Part shown: piece by piece, positions 8,832 to 51,153 of the stretch
Layout: each line of letters begins with the position of its first letter
How positions within the stretch are numbered: the stretch's first letter is position 1
Source of the DNA: Parasedimentitalea marina
Lineage (GTDB): Bacteria > Pseudomonadota > Alphaproteobacteria > Rhodobacterales > Rhodobacteraceae
DNA length: 64,000 bases
NCBI RefSeq assembly: GCF_004006175.1
Contig: NZ_CP033219.1
Span: 1,426,001-1,490,000 of the forward strand
Direction of reading: 5' to 3'
The notes under the pieces: model-generated
What the model saw: the letters and a program-made list of their open reading frames with translations, nothing else
Told to the model about the DNA's origin: nothing
Databases searched by the model: none
Translations under genes and position numbers: made by a program

Positions 8832-8842
8832 GCTTTTGGGGT

Positions 8843-9892
8843 CTATGCTGCGCGGCGCGCCATTTTGGCCTGTACTGTGGCAACTGCAACAGCGTCGGGG
8901 CAGGTGTTTTCCGCCCGGGCCTGAGATAGGATCGCTTGCATGGTCAGGTCCAGGGCCTCCAGCTTTTCTTCGACAAATGCGGCCTGGTCGGAAATGCGTA
9001 GAATTTCAGTGGCGACATTGATAATGCCGCCGCCGTTGGCAACAAAATCGGGCGCATACAGAATGCCTCTGGCGTGCAATGCAAGCCCATCTTGAGGAGA
9101 CGCCAGCTGATTGTTGGCGCCACCTGCCACGATACCGACGTTGAGCTGTGGTATAGTCTCTGGGTTTAGAATGCCACCAATTGCACAGGGTGCAAAAATA
9201 TCCGCCTTGGCCGCATAGATTTGATCCGGTTCAACGGCCGCGGCACCAAATGCGGTCTTGGCTTTGGATATACGTACTGCATCTGTGTCGGTAACAATCA
9301 GGTTTGCCCCTGCTGAACTAAGCTGCGTGCACAAATACCATCCGACGTTGCCCAGACCCTGGACCGCCACTGTTACACCGTCCAAATCGGCACTGCCGCA
9401 ATGGTGCCCTTGCGCCGTGCGAATGGCGTTATAGATGCCGCGTGCGGTGATCGGCGAGGGATCACCACTGGCGAACTCTCCATTGGATAACCCAGCAACA
9501 AAAGGTGTCACCTCGGCCAGATGCCCCATATCAGCGGGGGCCATGCCCATGTCTTCGGCGGTGAAATAGCGCCCCTGCAGGGTGTCGATGGCTCGACCAA
9601 AGGCGTGCAGCAATTCAGGTGTTTTGTCCGTCCCTGGATGACCAATGATCACCGCCTTGCCGCCGCCTAAGGGCAGGCCGGCTGCGGCGTTTTTGTAGGT
9701 CATTCCTTGGCTAAGCCGTTTCACATCGGTCAACGCCTCTTGCGCGCTGGCATAGGGGCGCATCCGCAGCCCGCCGGCAGCCGGGCCAAGCTGGGTCGAG
9801 TGTACAGCAATATATCCAAGCAGCCCGGTGGCAGTGTCTTCGACACAATAGATCTCTTCGTGACTGCTGGCTGGCATCGGTGTGATGATCAT
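8843..9892 (-). CDS. Leu/Glu/Phe/Val-type amino acid dehydrogenase
   Basis: A 349-residue NAD-dependent dehydrogenase. The N-terminal catalytic domain shows the glycine-rich GLPLGGGKAVI with its catalytic lysine and the MTYKNAAAG segment; the Rossmann domain has VQGLGNVGW; VANGGGIINVA is near the C-terminus. Length and motifs fit leucine/valine dehydrogenases, which reversibly deaminate branched-chain amino acids, but the exact substrate is uncertain. ATG 9892 with GGAGGAG upstream is chosen over the longer open frame. It is divergent from an Lrp-type regulator, the classic arrangement for amino-acid-responsive control. Confidence 0.88.
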   Translation of the reverse strand: MIITPMPASSHEEIYCVEDTATGLLGYIAVHSTQLGPAAGGLRMRPYASAQEALTDVKRLSQGMTYKNAAAGLPLGGGKAVIIGHPGTDKTPELLHAFGRAIDTLQGRYFTAEDMGMAPADMGHLAEVTPFVAGLSNGEFASGDPSPITARGIYNAIRTAQGHHCGSADLDGVTVAVQGLGNVGWYLCTQLSSAGANLIVTDTDAVRISKAKTAFGAAAVEPDQIYAAKADIFAPCAIGGILNPETIPQLNVGIVAGGANNQLASPQDGLALHARGILYAPDFVANGGGIINVATEILRISDQAAFVEEKLEALDLTMQAILSQARAENTCPDAVAVATVQAKMARRAA

Positions 9893-10007
9893 TCTATTTG
9901 CTCCTCCATTGCCACTTGATAAACTAGGCCGCGCGCAGGTTTTCGCCAAATCCAGCCGAGTGGTTTGCAAAATTTAGTGATTATCGCTAATTCGAAATTG
10001 AAAAATA

Positions 10008-10017
10008 GGAAATTTCC
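10008..10017. promoter_or_regulatory. GGAAATTTCC palindrome in front of lrp-like gene
   Basis: A perfect 10-bp palindrome overlaps the ribosome site of the regulator gene; the flanking bases (AATTCGAAATTG at 9989-10000) are also AT-rich and partly symmetric. It could be an autoregulatory Lrp site, judged by position only. Confidence 0.35.
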
Positions 10018-10018
10018 A

Positions 10019-10474
10019 ATGGATCCGATAGATAGAAAGATCGTTGCTGAGCTGCAGCTTAACGCCAGGCAAAAGATGGCTGATCTGTCTGAAAAGGTCG
10101 GGTTGTCGCCAACGCCCTGCGCGCGCCGGGTCTCTATCCTCGAGGACGCGGGGGTGATCACTGGGTATTCGGCGCGGGTGAATCAGACGAAACTGGGACT
10201 ACCGATAACGATTTTCGTAACGGTTGAACTGGAGAGGCAGGCCAGCGATGCCATTGCTGCCTTTGAGAGATCTGTGCAGGCTTTTGATGAAGTGATGGAA
10301 TGCTATCTGATGACTGGAAGTCGCGATATTTTACTGCGGGTGGTGTCGCGTGATCTGACCAGCTTTGATGAGTTTCTGGAGCACCATCTTCTGCGTGTGC
10401 CGGGCATACGTTCTACACAATCCAGCTTTACCCTACGTACAATGATCCAGCGCAACACCTTGCCTTCGGGATAG
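10019..10474 (+). CDS. Lrp/AsnC-family transcriptional regulator
   Basis: A 151-residue regulator: N-terminal winged helix-turn-helix (DRKIVAELQLNARQKMADL ... SPTPCARRV) and a C-terminal RAM domain that binds amino acids and drives octamer formation (GSRDILLRVVSRDL). ATG 10019 is preceded by AGGAA. Its divergent partner is the amino acid dehydrogenase at 8843, which it probably controls in response to a branched-chain or similar amino acid; this is inferred from position and from the common bkdR/ldh-type pairing. Confidence 0.92.
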   Translation: MDPIDRKIVAELQLNARQKMADLSEKVGLSPTPCARRVSILEDAGVITGYSARVNQTKLGLPITIFVTVELERQASDAIAAFERSVQAFDEVMECYLMTGSRDILLRVVSRDLTSFDEFLEHHLLRVPGIRSTQSSFTLRTMIQRNTLPSG

Positions 10475-10478
10475 ATTG

Positions 10479-10526
10479 GCGCCCAATTGACGGCTGTTAG
10501 AGTTGGCTACATCGACAATTGAGCGC
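10479..10526. repeat. Inverted repeat after the Lrp-type gene
   Basis: GCGCCCAATTG (10479-10489) and CAATTGAGCGC (10516-10526) are inverted copies with one mismatch, spaced 26 bases. It may end the regulator transcript, although no T-run follows. Confidence 0.4.
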
Positions 10527-10678
10527 TGACTTAGCGGCGAATTGTACGTATTTTGGCAACAATACTGCGTTAATGGGTGTTAACGGGCTTGATATTGGCC
10601 TGTTGTTGGCGCGGAACCGGAAACCGAGGTATGATCAGGTGTAGTTTAAAAAAACACACGCAAACCACGGGGCAAACC

Positions 10679-11188
10679 ATGGCAACGAGCACGACAAAGC
10701 GCAGCAGTGCAGGCAAATCCGTCACTTCAGGAACCACGACTGCCAAAACCACCACTCCGAAAACGCCTTCCCGGGCCGGATCCACACCTGGTCCTAAAGC
10801 TTCTCCCAAAGTGGCCAAAGTTGTGCCGACCGAAGCCGCCCGGGTGGTAGACCCAGTCGTTTCGGAGCCTCCCGTTGACGCAGCAGATCTGCCGATGCGA
10901 AAAAAAGAGCTTATAGACCTGGTTGTTGAACGGTCCGGTATCAAGAAGAAAGACGCTAAACCCGTCGTTGAAGCGATGCTTGCTGTACTTGGCGAGGCGG
11001 TTGGCCGCGGCCGCGAACTGAATATGCAGCCACTGGGGAAACTGCGCATAAATCGCAGCATAGAGCGGAGTAATGGCCGGATCGTTGTGTGCAAATTGCG
11101 GCAAAGCACTGCCACAACTGAAAATTCAACCGCAGCAGATAACACAACTGTTGGACCCATTGTAGAAGATGGAGCCGGTTTCCCATAG
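10679..11188 (+). CDS. HU-family DNA-binding protein with basic N-terminal extension
   Basis: A 169-residue protein. Residues about 1-70 are a low-complexity Thr/Ser/Lys/Pro/Ala tract; the HU/IHF-like domain follows (RKKELIDLVVERSGIKKKDAKP ... LGKLRINR). The DNA-grasping beta arms look shortened compared with standard 90-residue HU. Such histone-H1-like tailed HU variants are nucleoid proteins. ATG 10679 is chosen because it begins the basic tract; the frame is open upstream but that part looks non-coding. No operon partners. Confidence 0.78.
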   Translation: MATSTTKRSSAGKSVTSGTTTAKTTTPKTPSRAGSTPGPKASPKVAKVVPTEAARVVDPVVSEPPVDAADLPMRKKELIDLVVERSGIKKKDAKPVVEAMLAVLGEAVGRGRELNMQPLGKLRINRSIERSNGRIVVCKLRQSTATTENSTAADNTTVGPIVEDGAGFP

Positions 11189-11481
11189 GGGCGGTTAGGT
11201 CCAGAACAGCGCGTAACCCTGACTGCTGAAGACCAACAAAGAAGTGTAGTGTGGCATCCTACAGCTACCCGAAACCGGGGCATGAATGCTTCGGTTCGGC
11301 GCAAGGGGCGGCTTGCACCTCCGGATTATGGCCAGCTGAAGGCTCTCAATAACCGTTGTGTCGTCGGATCGCAGCCCGCTGTGACAGCTGTGTGAACCGT
11401 TCCAGACCGCCATCTCGCTCGCGGCTACTGTGTGGTCTTGGCCATGTGTCCTGAAGCTAGAGGTGGCAAAGGGCTTTCTAA
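11189..11481. other. Intergenic region without visible gene
   Basis: Together with the hairpin after it, this 330-base gap between convergent genes shows no recognisable gene. An open frame on the minus strand exists but has no start signal or recognisable motif. Confidence 0.4.
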
Positions 11482-11517
11482 TCTGCCTCCAAAGCGCGAA
11501 TAACCTTTGGAGGCAGA
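11482..11517. terminator. Strong hairpin between HU-like and GFA genes
   Basis: CTGCCTCCAAAG and CTTTGGAGGCAG pair perfectly, extended by one T-A pair to 13 bp, around a loop of 10 bases. It lies 5 bases past the GFA stop codon. There is no real T-run on either side, so it may act as a stabilising hairpin as well as a terminator. Confidence 0.65.
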
Positions 11518-11522
11518 AAGAC

Positions 11523-11930
11523 TTAACCCGGCATCTTCTCAAAGGCTGGTAGGCTGTCTTGGAGGACAGTCGCCTTCATTTTGCTCGACGTATAAACATT
11601 CACCTTCGGGGCGAATTCTTCATGTTCGTTGATGAGACCGGCGCGCAAGCCAAGCATGCCCGCGCGAGCAGAATTCTGTGTGAACAGTGGCGTTCCACAT
11701 GTGCCGCAAAAATGCTTGGTCATCGTGGTGCCTGCATCTGAATCGTGTTGGTAAGTTTTTGGCGTGCCGATGATTTTCACATCGTCCTGTTTCATAAACA
11801 TCAGTGTGGCATAGGCGCTGCCCGTGGATTGACGGCATGCGGTGCAGTGGCAGTTTGCCATGACCGGCACCTCACCATCGGCTTCAAATGAGATGTCACC
11901 ACAGAGGCATTTGCCGGTTAGTTTTGTCAT
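11523..11930 (-). CDS. GFA / CENP-V-like zinc protein
   Basis: A 135-residue protein of the glutathione-dependent formaldehyde-activating family. The zinc ligands are seen as CLCG at residues 8-11, the CHCTAC cluster near residue 30 and CGTCGTP near residue 80. The family fold is clear, but most members have no proven enzymatic role, so formaldehyde activation should not be assumed. ATG 11930 with AAGGAAAG upstream begins at the conserved N-terminus; the longer open frame is rejected. No cotranscribed neighbours. Confidence 0.88.
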   Translation of the reverse strand: MTKLTGKCLCGDISFEADGEVPVMANCHCTACRQSTGSAYATLMFMKQDDVKIIGTPKTYQHDSDAGTTMTKHFCGTCGTPLFTQNSARAGMLGLRAGLINEHEEFAPKVNVYTSSKMKATVLQDSLPAFEKMPG

Positions 11931-40533: not shown

Positions 40534-40609
40534 GCCCCTATAGCTCAGCTGGTAGAGCAACTGATTTGTAATCAGTAGGTCCGCGGTTCGAGTCCGTGTG
40601 GGGGCACCA
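40534..40609 (+). tRNA. tRNA-Thr (anticodon TGT), CCA encoded
   Basis: A 76-base cloverleaf: acceptor stem GCCCCTA/TGGGGGC, D-arm GCTCAGCTGGTAGAGC, anticodon stem CTGAT/ATCAG with loop TTGTA and anticodon TGT, T-arm with GGTTCGAGTCC, discriminator A and encoded CCA. The 3' half is the attachment site of the mobile element that follows. The gene is intact, so integration did not harm it. Confidence 0.97.
40573..40609 (+). repeat. Attachment site attL (37-bp tRNA 3' end)
   Basis: The 37 bases from the anticodon stem to the encoded CCA are identical to 49821-49857. The repeat is bounded by a mismatch on each side (T vs A before, T vs C after). This is the usual trace of tyrosine-integrase insertion in a tRNA gene. 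Confidence 0.93.
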
Positions 40610-40624
40610 TTTCTTATCATAAAA

Positions 40625-40686
40625 CCCTATGTTTCCTTGTTTGTAAGGCGTTCTCGTGTCTATCACGACACACGCGGCGACACACA
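40625..40686. promoter_or_regulatory. Left-end integrase/excisionase-type sites
   Basis: CCCTATGTTTCCTTGTTT (40625-40642) is the inverse of a segment at 49774-49791 near the right end. CACGACACAC (40664-40673) and GCGACACACA (40677-40686) recur as CACGACACACA (49727) and TACGACACAC (49750). Such paired sites flanking att are expected arm-type binding sites of the integrase. GGCGTTCTC is also shared by both ends. Confidence 0.6.
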
Positions 40687-40699
40687 TCGAGGACACAAA

Positions 40700-42025
40700 A
40701 TGGCCCTGTGCACCAAAATCAAACACGTGGACCAACGGCCAAATGGTGTTCTGAGGTTTAGAAGACGATTCCCGAAAGACGTTGCCGAATCTCTTGGTGA
40801 AACAGCACTGCAAGTTCACATGCGAAATCGAGAGGGCCTCTCATTCCACCACGAGTATCACGTTATCATGCAGGGGTTCGACCGATTGGTCTCAGAGACC
40901 CGTCGAAAATTAGATGGCAAGGATACTCGGTTTCCCATTGAGAGGTGGCATGAAGCGTTGCTGAAGCGAGAGGGCTTAACAGCTAAGACCTCTGGCCTAG
41001 AGGGTGACCCAGTGTTTGCCGCTAGGGAAATCGATAAGGGCTTCTCTGAGCAGCCCAATACGGACCCCTTGTTGGTGAAGGCGCTGGTGAACCCTGATGC
41101 TGAGGCTCCCAAACTGACACTGCAGGACGCCAAGAACATGTATGCTCAGGACAAGTGGATGCCAGATAAAGAGGTCGTTCGTCTTGACCGAATTACTCGT
41201 CGCCTTGAAGAAGCCTTGGGGCCGCTCGATAGAATGACCATCGAAGATCTGCGAAGAGATCATGGCAGGCGCTACATGGACCTGATGCTTAGTTCGACCA
41301 AGTCGGATGGCCAGCCCTTGTCTGTCGCCACCTGCACAAAGGAAAGCAAGATCGTTGCGGCTATGGTCAACCATGCGATGCGTGAAGGCGACATAGAAGC
41401 CAAGAATCCGTTCATCGGTCTGCCTTGGCCCAAGGACACAGGCCCCAAGGTGAACAAAAAACTACCGCTGCCGGACGACCTAATCGAAAGGATTGAAGGG
41501 CGGCTCAATGCTGGGCACACAGAAGAGCTTCCGGTAATTTGGCAGTTGCTCAAGGGCACTGGCATGCGCCTTGGTGAAGTCGTGGGTCTTGCTCATGACG
41601 ATCTAGTGCTCGACGCTGGAACACCTCACATCCTTGTTCGTCCCAACTTCATTCGTGACCTCAAGACTACTTCAAGCAACCGCTCTGTGCCGCTTACAGG
41701 ACCCTCTCTGGTAGCCGCTCAGAAGGCCATTGAAGGTGGTCAGTCTGGCCAGCCTATCTTCCCTCGTTACGCTCGTGATAGGGGCGCAGATGCGGCCTCT
41801 GCCGTATTGATGAAAGCGGTTCGCGCCGAGACCAAAGACAAGCGGTTCACAGTGCACGGCCTGAGACACCGGGTATCGGACAAACTAAGAGACATAGGGG
41901 CACCTGTGGAGGTCCGTCATGGCTTTCTAGGGCATTCGTCAACGGCCATTGCTGAGAGCACCTATGGGTCTCCTAAGGCGCGACTGATCGAGTTTGCAAA
42001 GTGGGCCGAGAGGGCTGGGCTATAG
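40700..42025 (+). CDS. Tyrosine-type site-specific integrase of element 1
   Basis: A 441-residue recombinase that catalyses insertion into tRNA-Thr. The catalytic residues are visible: Arg290 in GTGMRLGEVVG, His386/Arg389 in HGLRH, a later His in LGHSS and the nucleophile Tyr422 in ESTYGS. The N-terminal part (FRRRFPKDVAESLG, residues 18-31) is a typical arm-binding/SAM-like domain. The frame is open back into the tRNA, but ATG 40700 with GAGGA upstream is the natural start. It lies 90 bases from attL. Confidence 0.93.
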   Translation: MALCTKIKHVDQRPNGVLRFRRRFPKDVAESLGETALQVHMRNREGLSFHHEYHVIMQGFDRLVSETRRKLDGKDTRFPIERWHEALLKREGLTAKTSGLEGDPVFAAREIDKGFSEQPNTDPLLVKALVNPDAEAPKLTLQDAKNMYAQDKWMPDKEVVRLDRITRRLEEALGPLDRMTIEDLRRDHGRRYMDLMLSSTKSDGQPLSVATCTKESKIVAAMVNHAMREGDIEAKNPFIGLPWPKDTGPKVNKKLPLPDDLIERIEGRLNAGHTEELPVIWQLLKGTGMRLGEVVGLAHDDLVLDAGTPHILVRPNFIRDLKTTSSNRSVPLTGPSLVAAQKAIEGGQSGQPIFPRYARDRGADAASAVLMKAVRAETKDKRFTVHGLRHRVSDKLRDIGAPVEVRHGFLGHSSTAIAESTYGSPKARLIEFAKWAERAGL

Positions 42026-42187
42026 ACCATTTCGTCGCGGTCGTTTGGCTCCGGCGGTAGGTGTGCTGGAGAATTTCTGTCACTGTCTATCCTGTTGGAA
42101 AGACACAAGAAATAGAAGCGCCAGTCTTGCATGTATCCCCGAAGGTATCCCTAATTTGACAGCGCAGTAAAGGTGATTACTAGTTAC

Positions 42188-42781
42188 TTACGACATAATC
42201 TTGAACCACGACCTGACCGCCAAGTTTAGGCGCTCTTGTTCCAAGTCATCGGTGTCATTGCAGTGTGCTATGGGACCACGAAGCAGGTTCAATTGGTTCG
42301 TCACGTTGCTAACCGCCCGCTTAGAAACGAAGATGGCATCGAACACATCCCAATTGTCCGTTATCAATTGCGACAGTTCACCAAAGGTTGTGTAATCAAT
42401 CATGTCCTCAGAACGAGGGGTAATACCGCTGTCGATTTCCTTTTGACGCCTTTGCTCGGCCTCCTTTCTAATCCGGTTTTCATCGACCCTGACGCTGCCC
42501 CACCAATTAGGCCCTTCGATTTCGACCATTGCATCTCGAACCAATCGACGTATTGAGTTCTCCAGACAAAAGAAGACTTCATAAATTTCGGACATTCGAG
42601 CCGCTTGCATTCGAAGGTCTGCCTCGAATTGCTGATACTCAGTGACTTTCCGAGAGTTCTCTTTAGTCGCCGACAAACCGAGTTCGTGGCCCGTATCCAT
42701 TTCGACTTTGCGAAGGTCGCTGACCACCTGCTGACCACTCATGCCAAAAGCCATGATTAAACCATCTGGGCGTCTAGCCAT
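42188..42781 (-). CDS. HEPN-domain protein (Swt1/MAE-like)
   Basis: A 197-residue, mostly helical protein. The C-terminal part has the HEPN RNase signature R-x4-H: Arg168 and His173 in LLRGPIAHC. The rest is charged helix with EVFFCLENSIRRLVRDAM at about residue 68-85, as in Swt1-type HEPN proteins. HEPN domains are often toxins or RNases in defence systems. It starts inside the end of the DUF5343-like gene (8-base overlap), so it is translated with it. Activity is not proven: the motif alone fits both active and structural HEPN. Confidence 0.72.
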   Translation of the reverse strand: MARRPDGLIMAFGMSGQQVVSDLRKVEMDTGHELGLSATKENSRKVTEYQQFEADLRMQAARMSEIYEVFFCLENSIRRLVRDAMVEIEGPNWWGSVRVDENRIRKEAEQRRQKEIDSGITPRSEDMIDYTTFGELSQLITDNWDVFDAIFVSKRAVSNVTNQLNLLRGPIAHCNDTDDLEQERLNLAVRSWFKIMS

Positions 42782-43424
42782 CGTCGGAACTCAGCAGGTT
42801 TTGCTTCAAGCTGCGAAAGATAGCGTTGAATACCTCTTGGTCGGTCGTGGCGGGTAGATTGAGATTGATCGTGTAGCCTAGGTTCAAACCTATGCCGCCG
42901 TTTTGGTTGTTAGGGGCTGCCTGCTCTTGCACTGGCGCTACGATGGGTTGCTCCGGTGGCCTATACTCCGCTTTATCAACCGATGAACTTGTGTGTGCAC
43001 CGTTGAAATCCGCATGCTCTTTCAGAGCCTTGATACAGTTGACAACGGACTTGACCGGAGTGCTGTCGTGAGCGTTCCCCGTTTCTTCCATCACCAAATT
43101 TGTCAGTTCAGCCTCTGGCAATGTATGCAAGTATTCGTTCCGCATATACAGAGGTTGATATGCGTCTCGAATGGATTCGGCGACGACCGCACCAGAGGAA
43201 CCTGGATTTCTAAATCGCCGATAGCGATCTGTTGGTGAACCGTCTGCTCCAGTGAAACCAATCTTCTTTAAGTAAGTGGTCATCTGGTCTCCGGAACCGC
43301 CGGGCACCTTTAGCACGTTCTTTACAAAGTCTTGGCTTACTTTTGGCGGTATAGCCGCCGTTCGAATGCTCTCGAAAGCCTTTGCTATGTTTCCCGCTGC
43401 TGTAACGTATGGAAGTGAGGCCAC
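42774..43424 (-). CDS. DUF5343-like protein, partner of the HEPN gene
   Basis: A product of about 216 residues. The N-terminal 145 residues resemble DUF5343 (LPYVTAAGNIAKAFESIR, FLKKIGF-type TYLKKIGFTGADGSPTD, YRRFRNPGSSGAVVAES, YLHTLPEAELTNLV); a Gln/Pro/Asn-rich linker and a C-terminal patch (LGYTINLNLPATTDQEVFNAI) follow. DUF5343 has no known biochemical role; it looks like a wing-helix or DNA-binding module. The GTG at 43424, with AGGGG 8 bases upstream, fits the family start better than the upstream ATGs. It is the first gene of a two-gene operon with the HEPN gene. Confidence 0.7.
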   Translation of the reverse strand: MASLPYVTAAGNIAKAFESIRTAAIPPKVSQDFVKNVLKVPGGSGDQMTTYLKKIGFTGADGSPTDRYRRFRNPGSSGAVVAESIRDAYQPLYMRNEYLHTLPEAELTNLVMEETGNAHDSTPVKSVVNCIKALKEHADFNGAHTSSSVDKAEYRPPEQPIVAPVQEQAAPNNQNGGIGLNLGYTINLNLPATTDQEVFNAIFRSLKQNLLSSDDG

Positions 43425-43743
43425 CTGAAATCCCCTAAGTAAATACACTGTGGATAATGTGCGCATTATGACAGAAGCTACAAGATGTGCCACAGTTGAG
43501 TGCTACGCGGAAGGGTTGCAGTTCTTCAAACCTAAAAAACCGCAAAAATCTGTCAACCCGAGATATATAGAAGTGGTGGAGCGTTTCCCCCCGGTGGGGA
43601 TACCTTCACGACCCGCTTAGATTCACCTGTGGAGTTCCCCTACTAATGCAATTAAACCAATGACTTGATGTTCTATATGGAGGTGGGCATGTTGGCTCTG
43701 CACCGGGTTGGTGCCAGCGACATCAATCCCGAAAGGATACCAT

Positions 43744-43914
43744 ATGATCATCTTCGATATTCGCTTTGGGCGCTTCTCAATCCTCGTTCAGCGCGAACCC
43801 GATTGGCGCTGCTTAAAGGTATCCCGGGAGGGGCCGGGAGAGATTTCTGTCGATCTGCCTTGTGCCCGTGTCCTCCTAACGAACTATCGGCACACTGCCT
43901 GTCATTCCCAATAG
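43744..43914 (+). CDS. Possible 56-residue protein
   Basis: ATG 43744 is preceded by AAAGGA at a normal distance. The product (IIFDIRFGRFSILVQREP ... ISVDLPCARVLL) has a regular beta-like pattern and normal residue use but no recognised family. It stands alone in a 776-base region between the DUF5343-like and membrane protein genes. It may be a small accessory protein or chance. Confidence 0.38.
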   Translation: MIIFDIRFGRFSILVQREPDWRCLKVSREGPGEISVDLPCARVLLTNYRHTACHSQ

Positions 43915-44034
43915 AGCAAGACCTAGCGGGCAATAAGTGGGGGGTATCTGAAAGCTATCCAATAGAATTGTGTTGATCTTTTGGGGACGAATTTCCCGTA
44001 AAGTTTAAACGACCAGTTGGAAGGAACTGCTACA

Positions 44035-44115
44035 GCCATCGGATACGCCCGCGTTGGGAGGAACCTCCAGGACGCGTTCATGGCCTCCTTGATGCAGTCC
44101 AGAAGCGCTTTCGGT
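44035..44115 (+). pseudogene. Remnant of a serine recombinase N-terminus
   Basis: The plus-strand frame reads AIGYARVGRNLQDA, close to the conserved start of resolvases (IGYARVSTxxQ), but has no start codon, the catalytic serine position is Gly, and the frame ends soon after. This could be a decayed resolvase end or chance. Confidence 0.33.
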
Positions 44116-44200
44116 TGTTGTTTCTCTTCAATTAGTGTGATTTATCGAAGATGAATTTGGCACGCTGTTTAATTTAATTCTCCGTTCGGCAGGTTTTACA

Positions 44201-45043
44201 ATGAGATGGTTGCTTCGGCAGGGAGTATTCGCGGCGTCGTTTCTTGCTGCAGAGATAATTCGCAGTTTGAGTTGGTCGGAGCATATCCTCGCTTTTGTTA
44301 ATGCAATTCAACAAGCCTGCGATAATATTTGGCGAAGCCTTTTGGGAATTCTGGGCGTAACGGAATACCCCGACCCCGTGCTACTAACTTTGTTGATCCT
44401 ACTGTTAGGGCCTTGGTTTGCTTCGGCGCTTCGAGAGCAGCCACTAGACTTTTCACGTGTCAAAAATCAAAAGCTGTTTCATGATAAGCTTATCGTATTC
44501 TTGACGCCGCAGCGATCGATACCTGCTGAGCCTCAAACATTTCAATCAATTGCTAGAGATTGGCTGGAATGGGTTGGGTCTATAGTCACGCTTTTCGTGG
44601 TGGTTTGGGTTTTTGATATGTGGACTTACGCGACACTGGCAGCAGGACTTGTAGCATTGCTGTTTATTGGTCGGTGTATTGAGAACTCGGCCCATGAAAA
44701 TACCTCGTCGTCCCGCGATCTGAGTAACAACGAAAAAATAGCCGCTGTAGTTGTATCTATTGCAGCTTCATGGGTCATTTCGCTTCCATTGGTTGCGGCT
44801 TGGTTGGTTTTCAATATTTTTATTGGCAAGTTTGATTTTGCCGATTTTGACCCAAACTCATGGACAACATCAGACTACGTCTGGGCCTTTGCCATGGGGG
44901 TTGCAATGTTGCTGCTGGTCCATTGCGCGATTTTTGAGAAGCGATTCTTTTGCCGATTTGGTAGTTGGGTGCTAGGGGGGCTAATCCTTGCAAAGCTGGT
45001 GGACTACGGGGACCAAATCGTGCAAAAAATCATAATTGGTTGA
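44201..45043 (+). CDS. Polytopic membrane protein of element 1, unknown function
   Basis: A 280-residue protein with about six membrane helices (for example FAASFLAAEII near residue 8-20, LTLLILLLGPWFASAL near 65-80, IVTLFVVVWVF near 127-140, WVISLPLVAAWLVFNIF near 190-206, AMGVAMLLLVHCAIF, VLGGLILAKLV). Two short charged loops join them (KNQKLFHDKLI, HENTSSSRDLSNNEKI). No family is recognised. It is alone on the plus strand upstream of the recombinase. It could be a membrane effector of the element's defence cargo; this is inference only. Confidence 0.62.
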   Translation: MRWLLRQGVFAASFLAAEIIRSLSWSEHILAFVNAIQQACDNIWRSLLGILGVTEYPDPVLLTLLILLLGPWFASALREQPLDFSRVKNQKLFHDKLIVFLTPQRSIPAEPQTFQSIARDWLEWVGSIVTLFVVVWVFDMWTYATLAAGLVALLFIGRCIENSAHENTSSSRDLSNNEKIAAVVVSIAASWVISLPLVAAWLVFNIFIGKFDFADFDPNSWTTSDYVWAFAMGVAMLLLVHCAIFEKRFFCRFGSWVLGGLILAKLVDYGDQIVQKIIIG

Positions 45044-45163
45044 CTGTGTTTTCGGAGCGCGCAAAGGGAACTTTGTTTACCGTTTAAAAGTGCCTTGTCT
45101 ACATGCTTAGAGCCACGCACTTTTCTTTCCTCGCCGCAGTTCTTCTCGCGATCGCCGATAGTA

Positions 45164-45281
45164 TTTGTTCATAAAGGTATGCCACAGTGAACGCGCTTGA
45201 GGTCAGTAGAAAGTGTGTTCATAAGGGTTGACTTTAGCTTGTGAACAATTCAGCTATGTGAACGATACCTTTGTGAACAGG
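45164..45281. repeat. res-like array of TGTTCA(T/C)/GTGAAC motifs
   Basis: Six copies of one motif on both strands: TGTTCATAAAGGTAT (45166), an inverted GTGAAC (45187), TGTTCATAAGGG (45216), and inverted GTGAAC at about 45241, 45258 and 45273. The first and last are near-perfect inverse copies (14 of 15 bases). The array ends just before the recombinase start, the usual place for its crossover and accessory sites. Confidence 0.7.
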
Positions 45282-45287
45282 TGACCT

Positions 45288-45926
45288 ATGTCCAAGACCA
45301 TTCTTTATGTCCGCGTTTCAACAACTGAACAAACCAGTGACCACCAGCTTGAACAGGCCCGAAAGGCTGGCTTTCAGATTGATGACGTTGTGAGCGATCA
45401 CGGCACCTCTGGCGTCACTACGAAACTAGCAGACAGGGACGGCGGTAAGCGCCTCTTTGATATGTTGCGTGAGGGGGACACTCTGCTGGTCCGCTGGGTA
45501 GACCGATTGGGGCGCAACTATCCGGACGTGACCGACACCATTCGGGAGTTCATCCGCGAAGGCGTGACAATCAAGACTGTGATCAATGGCATGGTCTTCG
45601 ATGGAACGACCGCAGACCCAACACAAAAGGCCATCAGAGACGCGCTGATAGGCTTCATGGCTGCGATGGCCGAAGCACAGGTAGAGGCAAATAAAGAAGC
45701 TCAGAGGGCCGGTATAGAGCACCACAAGGCCACTTCTCCGGAGAAGTTCAAGGGACGCAAGCCAACTTTCGATAGAGCTAGTTTTGAGGGGGTGCAAGCT
45801 ATGCTGAATGCTGGAATAGGTCACTCAGCCATAGCCAAGGCCACAGGAGTCAACCGCAATGCCGTTATCCGGATAGCCCAAGACCCAACCAAGGCAGAAG
45901 CTGCGCTGGTGAAATGGGGAATGTAG
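45288..45926 (+). CDS. Serine recombinase (resolvase/invertase family)
   Basis: A 212-residue recombinase. The catalytic serine is Ser11 in YVRVSTTEQ, with Arg9 nearby; VDRLGRNYPD near residue 71 and the long helix E (ALIGFMAAMAEAQVEANKEAQRAGI) follow. The C-terminal helix-turn-helix (IGHSAIAKATGVNRNAVIRIA) binds DNA. The AGGTGACCT before ATG 45288 is a fair ribosome site. A repeat-rich res-like region lies just upstream. It may resolve multimers of the excised element or regulate its own promoter; that is inferred. Confidence 0.92.
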   Translation: MSKTILYVRVSTTEQTSDHQLEQARKAGFQIDDVVSDHGTSGVTTKLADRDGGKRLFDMLREGDTLLVRWVDRLGRNYPDVTDTIREFIREGVTIKTVINGMVFDGTTADPTQKAIRDALIGFMAAMAEAQVEANKEAQRAGIEHHKATSPEKFKGRKPTFDRASFEGVQAMLNAGIGHSAIAKATGVNRNAVIRIAQDPTKAEAALVKWGM

Positions 45927-46937
45927 TGTCTCAATCCACCTACAAGAGCCATAGACGCAGCTGGATTTCGACCTGATGTCCGAGTTGTAAGTTGGTGGCC
46001 TACCATCTTGGGGGCAGGTCGTATGACCCACAACCGAACCCCAACGGGCTCAGGTTTGCAGTAATCAAGTTGGAGCGGTTTTAGGCGAATACTTGACCCA
46101 AAGCGAACTGTGCACGCCAAATCATAAAACCCACACCATAGCACTAAAGGCGGCTTCGCGCATCACGCCCCAATTACTCCCCATATTCCTGATACTCACA
46201 ATAACAAGCCGAATAACGTGGGCTTTTGACCCACCCATAGCACTAAAAATCGGCTGCACCACCGCTAGACCATTAAGCCCCAACCTAGCTCTAGTGCGAT
46301 TGACTTGAGACGTTCCTCCCCCGCCTAAGACCCAGTGATCTGCTCCCCACGAGACAGAAAGTAAAGGCATGCTTCGTTCATCTGCGCGTGAGGGGATGCG
46401 ATCAATATTTGAGGAATCTGACCCATATTAAAGACCATGTGTTGGTTACTTAAGTTGACGTGTTCCTCGCTGTGAATGCGCGCTCATAGTGAATATCTCG
46501 TCCGTGGCAAAGCCATCGGCATTGGGTCTTCTAGCGATAGCGGCATGCTAAGGTGGAGGACTGGCGACCCTTTAGTTTTTAACCAGGCTATCTGGTTCAC
46601 ACAGTCCAGCCCCTTCGAGGTTCACCTCTATTAGATTGTCGGCTGATGCCGCCATGATGATCTTCGCTCCTCCAGTTCAGCCGTTTGGATTCTTTCCTGA
46701 TTACCGTTCCCGGTTGCCCGTGATGGTTGCCCTTTAAGGTTTCCCTTTCACAAACAACAGGTTTACGGAGGGTCTCCTTGTTGGATGAATTATCGTTTGA
46801 TTTCAATCTATTACGGCCTCGATATATTTAGTTGAGACAGATGTGCCGTTCGCACCCTTCTTCTGCATCACACAAGCCTGGCCCTCATGGCCCCATGAAC
46901 TGCCTCATCGCGAGGCCCCAAAACAGAAAGCTTTCAC
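45927..46937. other. 1-kb non-coding tract with two 25-bp repeats
   Basis: No convincing gene. A 25-base motif (CCCACACCATAGCACTAAAG and CCCACCCATAGCACTAAAAA beginnings) occurs at 46130-46154 and 46230-46254, exactly 100 bases apart. The tract lies directly before the helicase-like gene, so a replication origin is one reading. The second half has minus-strand short frames, one with a good ribosome site (46572-46655). Confidence 0.45.
46572..46655 (-). CDS. Possible 27-residue peptide
   Basis: ATG 46655 has GGAGGAG 11 bases upstream. The predicted peptide is acidic (AASADNLIEVNLEGAGL then CEPDSLVKN) without a membrane segment. Could be a leader peptide or chance; the strong ribosome site is the only support. 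Confidence 0.25.
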   Translation of the reverse strand: MAASADNLIEVNLEGAGLCEPDSLVKN

Positions 46938-48242
46938 ATGCTCTATCCTAGTCGCTCGACACACACCGTTATCATCGACCGCGCATGCGGCACCGGCAAG
47001 ACCACCGAGATGCTGGCTTCTCTACAGCCCGAAAGGAAATACCTTCTGGTCACGCCATCGCTCACGGAAATTGAACGTTTCGTAGCGGATGCCCCAGATT
47101 GGGTTGAAATCGTTTCCCCCAAAGAAGGCAAAGGACCGAAGCTTGTCCAGCTTGAGAGCTTATTGAGAGAAGGCAAATCCGTAGCGATCACGCACACATT
47201 GTTCTTCATGATGCTACGTCTGGCCGACTTGACGGCTGATTATGAGATTATCGTGGACGAGGCCCCCAATCCTGTCACTTGCGTTAACACTATTGATGCG
47301 GATGCCTTCAATGAGGCGGTTGTGGGCGGTGGATATGCTACCGTTTGCCCTGAGACACGTCAGGTCCAACCCGCGGCGAAATGGATTAAGTGGCAACGAG
47401 AGAAATTGGACAGCGATGGTGAACCAACATACTCGAGTAAACTACATCCCGACATTTATAGTCCAGCTATTCAGGGTCAGCTTCACGTTGATGAAAGCGG
47501 CATCTTCGCCGTGGCGACTCCGAACCAAGTGTTGCTGTCTGGTCGTTCGTTGACAGTGATGACCTTTCTCAGCGAAGGCACATACATCCGCGCCTATCTC
47601 AAAATGCTCGCTCAATCCCAGCCAAAGGCAGCTTTCACAGTGATTGAAGAGACGCCTAGTGACTGGCTTAGGCAAGCAAGAGAGTTGGTAACTGTGGAAG
47701 ACTTGGTTCTGCCAAAGCACGTCAAACTATCTTTCTCAAAGCAGACACGTCGCTCATTGGAGACCACCTGCAAGTCCATAGGCGGTGCGCTCAAGAACCT
47801 CTTGTATCGGCGATGGAAGGGAGTCGAGCGGACAAACATCATTCTAACGTGTGCCCGTGACAAGTGGTTTGAAGACCGTAAAAGCCGTTATGCGGGTCCA
47901 TGGGCCAAGTATTCTCGGATGTTTGGTAGGGACTATGGCAAAGACGGTGTGCAGTGGCTCCCAAACAAGACACGTGGGACCAATGACTACAAACACGCCA
48001 GCCATGCTATCTACCTTTATTCGATGTCACCCAACCCCATGGTGCAGAACTTCCTCGGGGTCTCAGGGCAGAGTTTCTCTGATGAATATGCTTTGGCTGA
48101 GATGGTCCAATGGATATGGAGAACTCGCGTCCGTGATGGCTTGGCCATTACTGTAGCCATTCCTGACAAGCGTATGCGTGCTATCCTTGAAGGCTGGCTA
48201 AACAGTGCAAATGCAGACATTGATCTTGTAGAGGCGGCCTGA
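46938..48242 (+). CDS. P-loop helicase-like protein of element 1
   Basis: A 434-residue protein. The Walker A motif is ACGTGKTT at residues 16-23 and the Walker B/DEAD-like motif is IIVDEAPN at 105-111; [10 protein letters not shown] near residue 83 and the late [11 protein letters not shown], which can serve as a motif VI-like arginine segment, support a helicase of superfamily 1/2. Conserved C-terminal domains are not recognised. No primase or Rep is near, so it may initiate replication of the excised element or serve in defence. ATG 46938 begins just before the Walker A. Confidence 0.62.
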
Positions 48243-48321
48243 ACATCCATTTCTGCCATCGACTAGCAAGTGCAAGGCATCTTTGAGACCGCCTAACACT
48301 ACCCTATTCCAACCCCAAAGC

Positions 48322-48354
48322 GCCCCCTGTCGGTTCAACTGATAGGGGGCTTAT
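48322..48354 (+). terminator. Terminator after the helicase-like gene
   Basis: GCCCCCTGTC and GATAGGGGGC form a 10-bp stem including one G-T pair around GGTTCAACT, followed by TTAT. It lies 80 bases past the stop codon. The rest of 48243-48549 shows no gene. Confidence 0.65.
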
Positions 48355-48549
48355 CGATGGGCACGATCACGACAATAACTTTCTTCATTGCCGAGTTTGT
48401 CCAAACTGTGTTCCGTCACTCCCGGCCTAGACTTGCCATTCGTGCCTAACCCGTTGAACAGCAGCTTCCAGCTAAAGCAGACACGAGCATCAGATACTTT
48501 CACGAACGTTTTTGAAATGCGCCGGAAACGACCGTTAAGCCTGATGTTA

Positions 48550-48927
48550 TCAACGCCTACGGTTCATAATACTCTTGTATTCTATTGGAGGAGTTGCGCC
48601 AAAAATATCGACATAGGCTTCACAGACATTGGTCCATTTGGAGCTTTCATAAAAAGCCAAGATAATGGACTTCAGGCCTTGATAGGTGATTCCGAGTTCC
48701 TTTTCGAAATCACCTTCAAATTTGTATTTCTCCATCGTCTCACCTTTTTCCAGACGTTCGTCCCAACGTTCGAATATGTCGTGAGCCGTTTCGAGGTCTT
48801 GAGCACGCCAATCCATCGACAGAATTAGAGCTTCGACTGGATGTTTATCATAATCGATAGCTTGGCCAAGAATTGAAACGTGGTAACTAAGTTTTCTTAT
48901 GCGCTCAATGATTTCCTGATTTGTCAT
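48550..48927 (-). CDS. Small soluble protein of element 1, unknown function
   Basis: A 125-residue acidic, helical protein (EIIERIRKLSYHVSILGQA; HDIFERWDERLEKGETMEK; GITYQGLKSIILAF). No family is recognised. Its ATG overlaps the stop of the upstream membrane-anchored gene by four bases (ATGA), so the two form a coupled pair on the minus strand near the right end of the element. Confidence 0.65.
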   Translation of the reverse strand: MTNQEIIERIRKLSYHVSILGQAIDYDKHPVEALILSMDWRAQDLETAHDIFERWDERLEKGETMEKYKFEGDFEKELGITYQGLKSIILAFYESSKWTNVCEAYVDIFGATPPIEYKSIMNRRR

Positions 48928-49415
48928 GAGTTTATTCCTTGAATAGAGGCCGTCGAAGTAAGGTTAGAAATTGTGTCCTGGACCAACTTCTGCGATGTCT
49001 GCCATTCATCCAAGTTTGGCTCTTGGTGCAGGGATGAATAGTATTCGTTGAGGCTAGCTTGGGCATTGGACAATAACACGCGGGCTGAGCTTCCGACGCC
49101 TGATGTAGGTAGAGCGCTCATTGCAGTATCGAACTCTCGTCGAACGGAATCAATTTTGGAGCCGGACTTAAATCCGCGTTCTGTAACCTTGTCGGGTGCC
49201 AAATCTCGGATGTGTTCCTGAGCGGACTTCAAGCGCTCTGCCACTGCGGCTAGTTGGACTGTAGCCATTGCTTTTTTTGCATCGTTACTTGATTTGAATG
49301 CGTTTCTGGCCTGTCGGATGGCAACCGCCATGCTAGCAAGAGACGCCACTGTGCCAATAACTGTGATCCAGCTAGAAAAATCCATGTTTTCACTAATCCA
49401 GCTAGAAAAATCCAT
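48924..49415 (-). CDS. Single-helix membrane-anchored protein of element 1
   Basis: A product of about 163 residues. After a short N-terminus comes one membrane helix (ITVIGTVASLASMAVAI) followed by a long, positively charged helix and a helical region (LAAVAERLKSAQEHIRDLAP). The start is doubled: MDFSSWI occurs at residues 1-7 and again at 11-17 because of a 21-bp repeat, so ATG 49415 or 49385 may serve. An open frame continues to 49631 but looks non-coding. Coupled to the 125-residue gene. No family is recognised; a membrane anchor for the soluble partner is the simplest reading. Confidence 0.6.
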   Translation of the reverse strand: MDFSSWISENMDFSSWITVIGTVASLASMAVAIRQARNAFKSSNDAKKAMATVQLAAVAERLKSAQEHIRDLAPDKVTERGFKSGSKIDSVRREFDTAMSALPTSGVGSSARVLLSNAQASLNEYYSSLHQEPNLDEWQTSQKLVQDTISNLTSTASIQGINS

Positions 49416-49416
49416 G
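49366..49416. repeat. 21-bp direct duplication at a start codon
   Basis: Copies at 49366-49386 and 49396-49416 are identical and 30 bases apart, so the frame is kept and the start codon with the first residues is doubled. Confidence 0.85.
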
Positions 49417-49705
49417 CGTGCTTGTTCTCTTCGAAGTTGTTCGGGCGAGTTTTGGTATGCCAAAGGGTTGCTTTGATGGCAATGGGTATCAACTAGCTTC
49501 TTTCTGCTGTCTCGTTTTCGATCAACGCTTGTGGTGCCGAGAACGTCCGAGGCCTCTGATAGTCTCATTGAATTAAGCTGCGGGGCAGCGGCCTTGGTGT
49601 CGCGTAGGTCCGGTCTGAGCCAAATGCTCAACTTTGCATCGTTCGCTTACTGCCAATGTTGTTGAAAAACTCGGTGCTTGGGGAGGGCGTAGAGCCGCGA
49701 ATCTC

Positions 49706-49791
49706 AACGTGGCCTCTCGGCGTTCTCACGACACACAAAACGTGGCCTCTACGACACACTTTATTTCACAGCCGACAAGGAAACTATAGGG
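49706..49791. promoter_or_regulatory. Right-end integrase/excisionase-type sites
   Basis: AACGTGGCCTCT occurs twice (49706-49717 and 49739-49750), each followed by an ACGACACAC-type motif (49727 and 49750). GACAAGGAAACTATAGGG (49774-49791) is the inverse of the left-end segment at 40625-40642. These mirror the left end of the element and probably bind Int or Xis. No gene is seen between 49416 and the att site. Confidence 0.6.
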
Positions 49792-49820
49792 TAACCGGTT
49801 GTTTTACCTGATGTTTTTCA

Positions 49821-49857
49821 CAGTAGGTCCGCGGTTCGAGTCCGTGTGGGGGCACCA
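49821..49857 (+). repeat. Attachment site attR of element 1 (37-bp tRNA 3' end copy)
   Basis: Identical to the last 37 bases of tRNA-Thr (40573-40609). Since a second integrase gene starts 70 bases further, the same site may serve as the left attachment site of element 2. Confidence 0.93.
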
Positions 49858-49926: not shown

Positions 49927-51153
49927 TTAGCGGGACTGTCTGAGTTGTACCACTTTGTTTGCACCGTCAGAACGCGCGCGTGAGTAACGGTCAGTGGTTG
50001 AGACTTCTTTATGCTGACCCGCGTCCCGTAGTGAAAAAGGATCTGCGCCAAGGTTTTTCGCTTCTGTCATAGCACCAGCCCGCAAATCCATCATCCAGAT
50101 GCCCTCGGGTATGCCAGCCTTTTTCCGTAACCGTGCCCTGGCTTGCGACCATCCGCTGACGGTGTAGGGCATGCCACCGCTTTTCTTGGAGAGAATCACC
50201 GGGCCGACCGGATTGGCCGACTGGATCTTGAATAGGCGATCTCGGATCTCTGGTATTGCTGTAAGGTCGAACACATAGGGTTCAGGCAAAGATTTCCGGG
50301 TCTTGGAAATCAGCTTGGTCATTCTAGTCAGCTCAATATCGAACATGTCCCATGTCAGCCCGTCTTGCCACCGCTTGCCATTGCGGATGATGCCACCTTC
50401 TGTTTCGTTGGTGTTCAGCCATTGGCCGCGTACATCCACGGCACGAAGGGCAAACTCGTATTGGATCATGATTCCCAGGGCGTAATGATCCAACCCCTCC
50501 TGATCAGCGGCTGCTATCACAGCATAGACCTGGTCCCGTGTTGGGGAAACTTGCCGCGCGGAGCTGTTCTGAAACCGCATTTCCGAAAGAATATCAGCCA
50601 CTTCAATAGCTGCTCTAATTTTTAGCACCTTCCCGTATCGCGAAACACGACGCAGAGTGTTGAAGAACCGGTGGATGTAAGAAATGGACCGGCCTTTGTC
50701 TATCATGGCCTTCTGGATCGTTTTGATGACTTCATAGGTCATACCTGAGATCTTTGTGCGGCCAATCACCTCTTCCAGCTTTGCCAGTTGCTGGATGTAT
50801 CCGGCTCGGGTATTTCCTTTTACTTCCTGAAATGGCGAGAATTCGTCCGTCTGGTAGCGAGCAATCAGATACTTCCAGGTCTCGGGATCTAACCGTGGCT
50901 TATCCTGATCTTCGAACCACCTGACCGATTCCTGCGTCAGTTCCCGGCATCGCAGGGCACGGGCTTTCTGGAATTCGTCTTTCTCATGGCCTGCGGGCTC
51001 GATCTTTACTTTGGTGATGGCAAATCCGGCCTTCACGTATTTGGGTTGGCACTTCCAGTGCGCATACCTGCGCTCTGGGTTCTTACCGCTCCAACTGATG
51101 CCTGGGGCATAGAGCGGGTCTGAACCGTCCCATAATGCATCTTTAAATCGCAT
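49927..51153 (-). CDS. Tyrosine-type phage integrase of element 2
   Basis: A 408-residue recombinase. The catalytic Arg is in EFALRAVDVRG, the box II segment reads MDLRAGAMTEA (the usual His is replaced, a variant seen in several alphaproteobacterial phage integrases), HKEVS supplies a His and the nucleophile Tyr is in TTDRYSRA. The N-terminal half (TRAGYIQQLAKLEEVIG) is the core-binding SAM-like domain. It starts within the excisionase-like gene (11-base overlap) and ends 70 bases from the att site, so it probably inserted into the same tRNA. Confidence 0.9.
   Translation of the reverse strand: MRFKDALWDGSDPLYAPGISWSGKNPERRYAHWKCQPKYVKAGFAITKVKIEPAGHEKDEFQKARALRCRELTQESVRWFEDQDKPRLDPETWKYLIARYQTDEFSPFQEVKGNTRAGYIQQLAKLEEVIGRTKISGMTYEVIKTIQKAMIDKGRSISYIHRFFNTLRRVSRYGKVLKIRAAIEVADILSEMRFQNSSARQVSPTRDQVYAVIAAADQEGLDHYALGIMIQYEFALRAVDVRGQWLNTNETEGGIIRNGKRWQDGLTWDMFDIELTRMTKLISKTRKSLPEPYVFDLTAIPEIRDRLFKIQSANPVGPVILSKKSGGMPYTVSGWSQARARLRKKAGIPEGIWMMDLRAGAMTEAKNLGADPFSLRDAGQHKEVSTTDRYSRARSDGANKVVQLRQSR

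Follow-up and report, generated by a model that had tools for sequence, protein, structure and literature searches.

Within a 64,000-nucleotide stretch of the Parasedimentitalea marina genome, here called the window, we identified a 9.2-kb integrative element located in a tRNA-Thr gene. The element apparently represents a recurring and undescribed family in the Rhodobacterales, based on a comparison in which the VEIME clusters were considered without their gene content, and we tentatively read it, with confidence that stops just short of even, as a replicating phage satellite that carries defense genes. The clearest new point is that sister elements encode stand-alone ejection proteins of the T7 type. 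No description of the family was found in the titles and abstract openings of the literature on phage satellites with ejection proteins, T7-like phages, or Roseobacter.

The last 37 bp of the tRNA-Thr gene were repeated without mismatches at the far boundary of the element, with a spacing of 9248 bp between the 2 copies. The 24-bp core of this attachment (att) repeat was present in 2 copies in the window even when 3 mismatches were allowed (0/100 shuffles). As in integrative elements of the tRNA class, the integrase gene adjoins the tRNA gene and the direct repeat of the tRNA 3' end is placed at the opposite boundary. The motif CGACACAC occurred in 5 copies in the window, 2 near each end of the element and the fifth within the helicase gene (46957), and a longer form of the motif, ACGACACAC, occurred in 3 copies, all at the element ends, a number that was reached in 0 of 100 shuffles. 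Among 21 loci, comprising the 20 helicase loci described below and the related locus L188, the pair of CGACACAC copies spaced by 23 bp was identified only in the window, L032, L033, and L034, always just inside the right att repeat. The exact left pair, spaced by 12 bp, was found in the window and in L032, and both L033 and L034 contained one exact and one variant copy. The L034 element was located in a tRNA-Phe gene and the other 3 in tRNA-Thr genes. We infer that the CGACACAC pairs are integrase arm sites, which would mark the boundaries independently of the tRNA repeat.

The left flank of the element was present in 8 of 8 genomes of the genus, including that of P. marina itself. An intact helicase gene was found in 0 of the 7 congeners, one of which (G007) contained a single fragment with a stop, and the element is polymorphic in presence and absence between congeners. 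In the seven congeners, we saw no unoccupied site with joined flanks within the 1.5 kb that follow the tRNA gene; in this region they shared no segment longer than 58 bp with each other and only att-like pieces with the window. Furthermore, the congener G004 contained several additional copies of the tRNA-Thr att sequence over approximately 135 kb after the tRNA gene (L193-L195). The tRNA-Thr site is a hot spot for integration and accretion. Because of the tRNA 3'-end repeat, the matching arm-type sites, the lack of an intact helicase gene in 7 of 7 congeners, and the tRNA-bounded nature of 13 of the 19 other helicase loci, we consider the mobility and boundaries of the 9.2-kb element to be well supported at the sequence level.

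The hallmark of the family is an SF2-type helicase, which was identified in 3 of 195 relatives (counting the genome that contains the window and the G007 fragment), in 16 of 390 genomes from the order at E<=1e-10 (fragments counted), and at 4 loci in the species collection. We examined 20 helicase loci (the window, L032-L035, and L068-L082), 14 of which lay between repeated tRNA 3' ends (14-89 bp) and spanned 2.7-15.5 kb (the window, L032, L033, L034, L068-L074, L076, L077, and L079). The tRNA genes at these loci were those for Thr, Leu, Val, Phe, or Ala. No tRNA repeat was found at L035, where a tRNA-Ser gene lies beside the integrase gene, or at L075, L078, L080, L081, and L082, with L078 and L080 being fragments. 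Members of the family combine a tyrosine integrase, changing cargo, the SF2 helicase and, in 6 of the 20 loci (the window, L033, L035, L070, L077, and L082), a serine recombinase.

At least one cargo protein was scanned for 17 of the 20 loci, leaving out L032, L078, and L080, and the open reading frames of these loci were scanned in part. Matches to defense families were obtained in 9 of the 17 loci (the window, L033, L034, L068, L069, L071, L073, L079, and L081), and in the 8 of 16 loci outside the window these included restriction-modification, Mrr, SIR2/NB-ARC, CHAT, HerA/NurA-like, and KAP families. No defense-family match was recorded among the cargo proteins scanned from the other 8 loci, namely L072, L082, and 6 loci that contained DUF3102 (L035), DUF1254/DUF1214 (L070), a GHKL ATPase and Bro-N (L074), phage genes (L075), an endonuclease VII-like protein (L076), and a DNA methyltransferase (L077). 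The locus L032 in Pseudooceanicola nitratireducens (8837-11602) is a miniature of 2.7 kb that has retained both att ends, the arm sites, the region upstream of the helicase gene, and an intact helicase gene together with a truncated remnant of the integrase gene, and this element might be moved in trans. Helicase fragments with stops were also identified in G274 and G474.

An earlier sequence-only reading of this stretch had proposed that the perfect 37-bp tRNA-Thr repeat bounds an element, and this was borne out by the core repeat counts, the arm sites, and the congeners. With regard to the gene order that it suggested looking for next to tRNA-Thr in other Rhodobacterales, the core recurred at tRNA repeats (14/20 loci), tRNA-Thr was not the sole site, and the cargo varied.

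Isolated ejection proteins of the gp14/gp16 type were identified in L035, L073, L074, and L188. A gp16-like protein of approximately 1280 amino acids was encoded downstream of the helicase gene in L035 and L074, and nearly all of the L074 protein was covered by a match to phrog_342 ("internal virion protein with endolysin domain"; E 6.5e-150). The 2 copies were 71% identical in sequence, with a ratio of nonsynonymous to synonymous substitution rates (dN/dS) of 0.13. The L073 locus contained a T7_gp14 protein (E 6.6e-28). L188, which was found via gp16, is an element of 12.7 kb bounded by tRNA-Leu with genes for an integrase, a serine recombinase, gp16, and a Bro-N/KilAC antirepressor; no helicase was found in L188, and a Bro-N protein was also present in L074. 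Alignment of gp16 gave matches in 129 of 390 genomes, which were near full-length in G241 and G404 (split) and a remnant in G372, and the remaining matches listed covered the N-terminal lysozyme domain. T7_gp14 (PF24072) was above the cut-off in 1 of 390 genomes from the order, corresponding to the L073 element, and G441 gave a weaker, sub-threshold match. A T7-like portal query yielded no match in 13 host genomes and was positive in all 4 T7-like control phages, at identities as low as 30%. Apart from gp14/gp16, no virion family was recognized in the proteins scanned from the 14 tRNA-bounded loci, the open reading frames of which were scanned in part. The gp14 and gp16 proteins thus stand alone in these hosts, which favors satellites over decayed T7-like prophages. 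The gp16-bearing relatives are closely linked to the element in the window, since the L035 helicase was 73% identical to that in the window and L034 and L035 aligned in 2 blocks through the helicase gene and the next gene, after which the cargo diverged.

A few loci showed additional variation. One 89-bp tRNA-Leu repeat is found at both termini of the L068 contig (1-11343), which may correspond to an excised circle or merely to an assembly break at the repeat. L210 and L214 are tRNA-adjacent and contain genes for an integrase, a similar serine recombinase, and RNase HI (Pfam) with no helicase match, perhaps representing a parallel replication type. A gene for RNase HI was also located after the gp16 gene in L035.

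The PF27199 label was carried by all 52 homologs of the helicase, which has evolved under strong constraint (dN/dS of about 0.06). An AlphaFold (AF2) model predicted from 36 sequences had a mean pLDDT of 88, and its best matches in PDB were DinG and XPD (E 1.2e-8 and 3e-8, with TM scores of up to 0.49), followed by other SF2 helicases. About 1 kb of noncoding DNA separates the serine recombinase gene from the helicase gene, and the part of it next to the helicase gene aligned as a block with this gene and is also covered by a five-way alignment. This conserved region is most likely a replication origin, as judged from its sequence. It contains iteron-like repeats of 13 bp that are directly followed by a strongly conserved block (46750-46768). 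A tandem-repeat score of at least 12 was obtained upstream of the helicase gene in 3 of 14 loci, as compared to 0 of 78 control regions, and 2 of the 3 high-scoring loci (L076 and L079) are located at the same kind of tRNA gene and may be related. At p<=0.025, the iteron scan was positive in 6 of 14 helicase loci (200 shuffles), as compared to 5 of 78 control regions (80 shuffles). A structured RNA upstream of the helicase gene was not favored, and an origin was preferred, since there was no Rfam match in this region and the RNA folding z was -0.03. Among the matches listed, the helicase was 24-26% identical to genes of large phages and 25-27% identical to relatives on Acinetobacter, Bacillus, and small Macrococcoides plasmids. 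The relatives H36 and H38 showed identities of about 27% and were found on Macrococcoides plasmids of 10-12 kb and on Acinetobacter plasmids, and all of those listed were annotated as hypothetical.

If the element is a satellite, a trigger, probably infection, would cause the integrase to excise a circle across the 37-bp repeats. The SF2 helicase would then open the iteron-bearing origin just 5' of its own gene and recruit replication proteins from the host or a helper, and the serine recombinase would resolve multimers at the dyad site that precedes its gene. The DNA would be packaged into the particles of a helper phage which, in some relatives, may be a T7-like podovirus because these relatives encode their own gp14/gp16-type ejection proteins. 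After injection, the integrase would reinsert the DNA at the tRNA gene, and the lysogenic host may be protected by the HEPN/DUF5343 pair (PDC-M34) and perhaps also by the DUF1878/membrane protein pair. The excision, replication, and resolution steps are drawn from the gene families and sites in the element, and the packaging step from its relatives only.

Several observations weigh against a satellite lifestyle. Only 4 of the 21 elements encode gp14 or gp16, and the L188 gp16 gene is split by a frame change. Neither protein was found in the element in the window or in its nearest relatives, L032 and L033, and no virion gene was recognized in the element itself. No terminase was found in the proteins scanned, and no small-terminase role is claimed for the 106-amino acid protein of L072 and L073. 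The arm-site layout was confined to 4 of the 21 loci, and 8 of 14 loci gave a weak iteron signal. In IMG/VR, the helicase had no close relative, and a wider scan gave only relatives of 22-28% identity among the 80 loci retained out of 264. The idea that the proteins of 246/240 amino acids (L072 and L073) and 257/258 amino acids (L068, L069, and L071) encoded 3' of the helicase gene are T7-like scaffolds was dropped; in hhalign comparisons, the 2 groups matched four T7-like scaffolds with probabilities of 0.5% and 1.4% and each other with a probability of 4.2%, Pfam gave nothing reliable, and the predicted fold of one candidate had no Foldseek match at E<=0.001. Finally, the helicase gene at L075 (G476:C28), where no tRNA repeat was found, is located beside genes for a head maturation protease and a minor tail protein (PHROGs), and this contig looks like a prophage, which weakens the satellite reading and strengthens the view that the elements are derived from prophages.

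According to that view, a T7-like or other prophage would have lost its structural genes and left the element as a relic, which would explain the integrase, the relationship of the helicase to large-phage genes, the gp14/gp16-type genes in relatives, and the head-protease and tail genes at L075. We consider this quite improbable, since 14 tRNA-bounded loci of 2.7-15.5 kb share the compact core, the gp14/gp16 families were the only virion families among the proteins scanned from these loci, the 13 host genomes lacked a T7-like portal match, and the identity of the helicase to the listed phage genes was as low as stated above. Another unlikely explanation is that the element is now an immobile defense island, in which selection would act on the defense pair alone and the integrase, helicase, and recombinase would be remnants. 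Decay does occur in the family, as seen from the truncated L032 integrase and the helicase fragments with stops in G274 and G474, but in the window the att repeat is perfect and the 3 genes have intact reading frames, with strong constraint on the helicase, recombinase, and integrase between relatives (dN/dS of 0.06-0.10).

It is similarly unlikely that the element is an integrated plasmid-like or mobilizable element that is excised, replicates by means of the helicase and resolvase, and is conjugated from an origin of transfer (oriT) recognized by the relaxase of another element. Two features of the element, the serine recombinase with its res-like site and the iteron-like origin, are typical of plasmids, on which the helicase family is also represented, as noted above. 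In conflict with this, a Pfam scan of the 8 proteins encoded inside the element revealed no relaxase or coupling protein, and some relatives encode ejection proteins and phage-type regulators of the Bro-N/KilAC type, for which an element that hitches a ride by conjugation would have no need.

A more specific version of the satellite reading, which we regard as rather doubtful, is that the family is an undescribed lineage of T7-like podovirus satellites that takes over delivery and not capsid size or packaging choice. Some members would supply gp14 and gp16, the latter with a cell-wall-cutting domain, to the helper particle and thereby tune injection into the host of the satellite. The core itself, made up of integrase, origin, and helicase and combined with exchangeable defense cargo as in the window, would ride in any particle that it can enter. 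If satellites do bring their own ejection proteins, they would exploit phages in a manner of which the literature searched gave no description, and this would, if true, help explain how defense systems spread among the Rhodobacterales. Compact islands that have neither capsid genes nor conjugation genes are common, and their mode of movement is mostly unknown. The family provides a testable case, with a core of integrase and arm-type sites, a helicase with a conserved upstream region and, in some members, a recombinase with a res-like site, and the stand-alone ejection proteins of some members point to the type of helper.

Satellites of the PICI/SaPI and P4-like types carry an integrase, a replication module, defense or other cargo and, in some members, morphogenesis genes derived from phages, and those known act by changing capsid size or packaging choice. 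The family described here likewise has an integrase, a putative replication module, defense or other cargo, and phage-derived genes in some members, but differs in that some members encode the ejection proteins gp14/gp16 and in the family to which its putative replication protein belongs. The proteins scanned from the tRNA-bounded loci gave no match to a terS, sid, or capsid family. Both types are among the satellite families named in PMC11389934.

The phage-inducible chromosomal minimalist islands (PICMI) of the Vibrionaceae contain alpA, a DUF3987/DUF5906 primase, and a fis integration site, as described in PMC10803314. Like these islands, the element in the window is a small element of a marine bacterium that has an integrase and its own putative replication protein, lacks capsid genes, and is integrated at a specific site, and we propose by analogy that the satellite lifestyle may be shared. 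Unlike PICMI, the element has an SF2 helicase and is located at a tRNA-Thr gene rather than at fis, and neither alpA nor a DUF3987/DUF5906 primase was detected in the Pfam scan of the 8 inside proteins. VEIMEs and tycheposons are likewise elements of marine bacteria with tyrosine recombinases; tycheposons are located at tRNA genes and are known in the Methylophilaceae, and VEIMEs were found in virion DNA, according to PMC11389934, PMC10187409, PMC10690885, and PMC10872708. The likeness to these elements lies in the tyrosine recombinase, the marine host and, for tycheposons, the tRNA site.

The features of the element are listed in Table 1. In the Pfam scan of the 8 inside proteins, Phage_integrase, HEPN_Swt1, DUF5343, and Resolvase were above the curated cut-offs, DUF1878 was barely so (23.2 vs 23), DUF6261 was below its cut-off, and the membrane-like and helicase-like proteins had no match. 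The integrase gene probably starts at ATG 40701 and not at GTG 40598, since the longer frame overlaps the tRNA gene. The genes for the HEPN and DUF5343 proteins overlap by 8 bp and match both models of PDC-M34, a candidate defense pair in PADLOC, and are candidate defense cargo as supported by their families; here the pair is one cargo module and not the whole element. PDC-M34 by name, or DUF5343 together with HEPN, was not mentioned in the literature searched. A single homolog of the hydrophobic 280-amino acid protein was obtained at E<=0.001, with 81% identity, in Ruegeria (among 7999 candidates scored).

We read the serine recombinase as a resolvase. The best PHROG name was that of a DNA invertase, and a resolvase was preferred because the half-sites cluster directly upstream of the gene and the window contains a single copy of the full-length site pattern. 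The 17 half-site matches with at most one mismatch in the window equal the total expected by chance, but the clustering of 4 of the 17 within 114 bp does not, and the single full-length dyad pattern, with 3 mismatches, compares to 0.07 expected. The res-like site was conserved in an alignment with L033 and L188. The gene for the membrane/coiled protein probably starts at ATG 49415 or 49385 and not at TTG 49631. The counterparts of this protein and the DUF1878-like protein are encoded by adjacent genes on an Agrobacterium fabrum plasmid, with the gene for the DUF1878 family protein in second position. Phage searches with 2 module proteins gave no matches.

The Pfam, PHROG, and PADLOC results agree with the gene set listed in the sequence-only reading, namely an integrase, a DUF5343/HEPN pair, a membrane protein, a serine recombinase, a helicase-like protein, and a soluble/membrane pair, and with its claim that virion, relaxase, and conjugation genes are absent, in that no relaxase, coupling-protein, conjugation, or virion family was detected among the 8 proteins. 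Its description of the cargo as mostly unrecognized was too strong, as only the 280-amino acid protein lacks a family or a recurring partner. Of its proposal of an undescribed satellite or defense element, the defense cargo stood by family (PDC-M34; defense matches in 9/17 loci), and the satellite part is drawn from relatives only.

Table 1. Features of the tRNA-Thr element of P. marina, with positions in the window
Feature	Position	Strand	Evidence or comment
tRNA-Thr(TGT)	40534-40609	+	Integration target; 3' end 40573-40609 is the left repeat (ARAGORN, Rfam tRNA)
Left putative integrase arm sites	40665-40685	+	Two CGACACAC 12 bp apart (40666, 40678)
Tyrosine integrase	40701-42025	+	Phage_integrase E 2.9e-13; 66% identity to L033
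HEPN (Swt1-like) protein, second gene of pair	42188-42781	-	PF18731 E 3.1e-9; PDC-M34B E 9.2e-37
DUF5343 protein, first gene of pair	42774-43493	-	PF17278 E 3.9e-37; PDC-M34A E 3.3e-42
Hydrophobic 280-aa protein, apparently polytopic membrane protein (by eye)	44201-45043	+	No family match
Putative res site	45166-45279	+	Four TT(A/G)TGAACA half-sites directly 5' of the serine recombinase gene
Serine recombinase	45288-45926	+	Resolvase E 1.4e-26; 88% identity to L033, 75% to gp16-bearing L188
Conserved noncoding region, candidate replication origin	46488-46937	+	72% identity to L032, 79% to L033
13-bp iteron-like repeats	46712-46748	+	Empirical p 0.005 vs 200 shuffles
SF2-type helicase, 434 aa, family hallmark	46938-48242	+	phrog_2467 E 7.5e-37; PF27199
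125-aa DUF1878-like protein, downstream gene of two-gene module	48550-48927	-	PF08963 E 1e-4
Membrane/coiled protein	48924-49631	-	53% identity to an Agrobacterium protein of 153 aa, beginning with residue 83
Right putative integrase arm sites	49728-49759	+	Two CGACACAC 23 bp apart (49729, 49752)
Right attachment repeat	49821-49857	+	37 bp, identical to the tRNA-Thr 3' end

A second tyrosine integrase gene (49927-51153, reverse strand), with a small upstream open reading frame that extends to 51424, ends approximately 70 bp outside the right repeat. Homologs of the integrase and the small open reading frame were located beside an att copy in G007 (94% identity; L196) and at a tRNA-His gene in G001 (77% identity; L197). 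Because of the integrase homolog beside another att copy in G007, we place this gene outside the 9.2-kb unit, as part of an abutting element. It was also noted that the genome of P. marina contains a second serine recombinase gene (L217; G000:C1:794000-813900), the product of which showed 57-58% identity, and which is located near genes that by eye resemble those of type I restriction systems.

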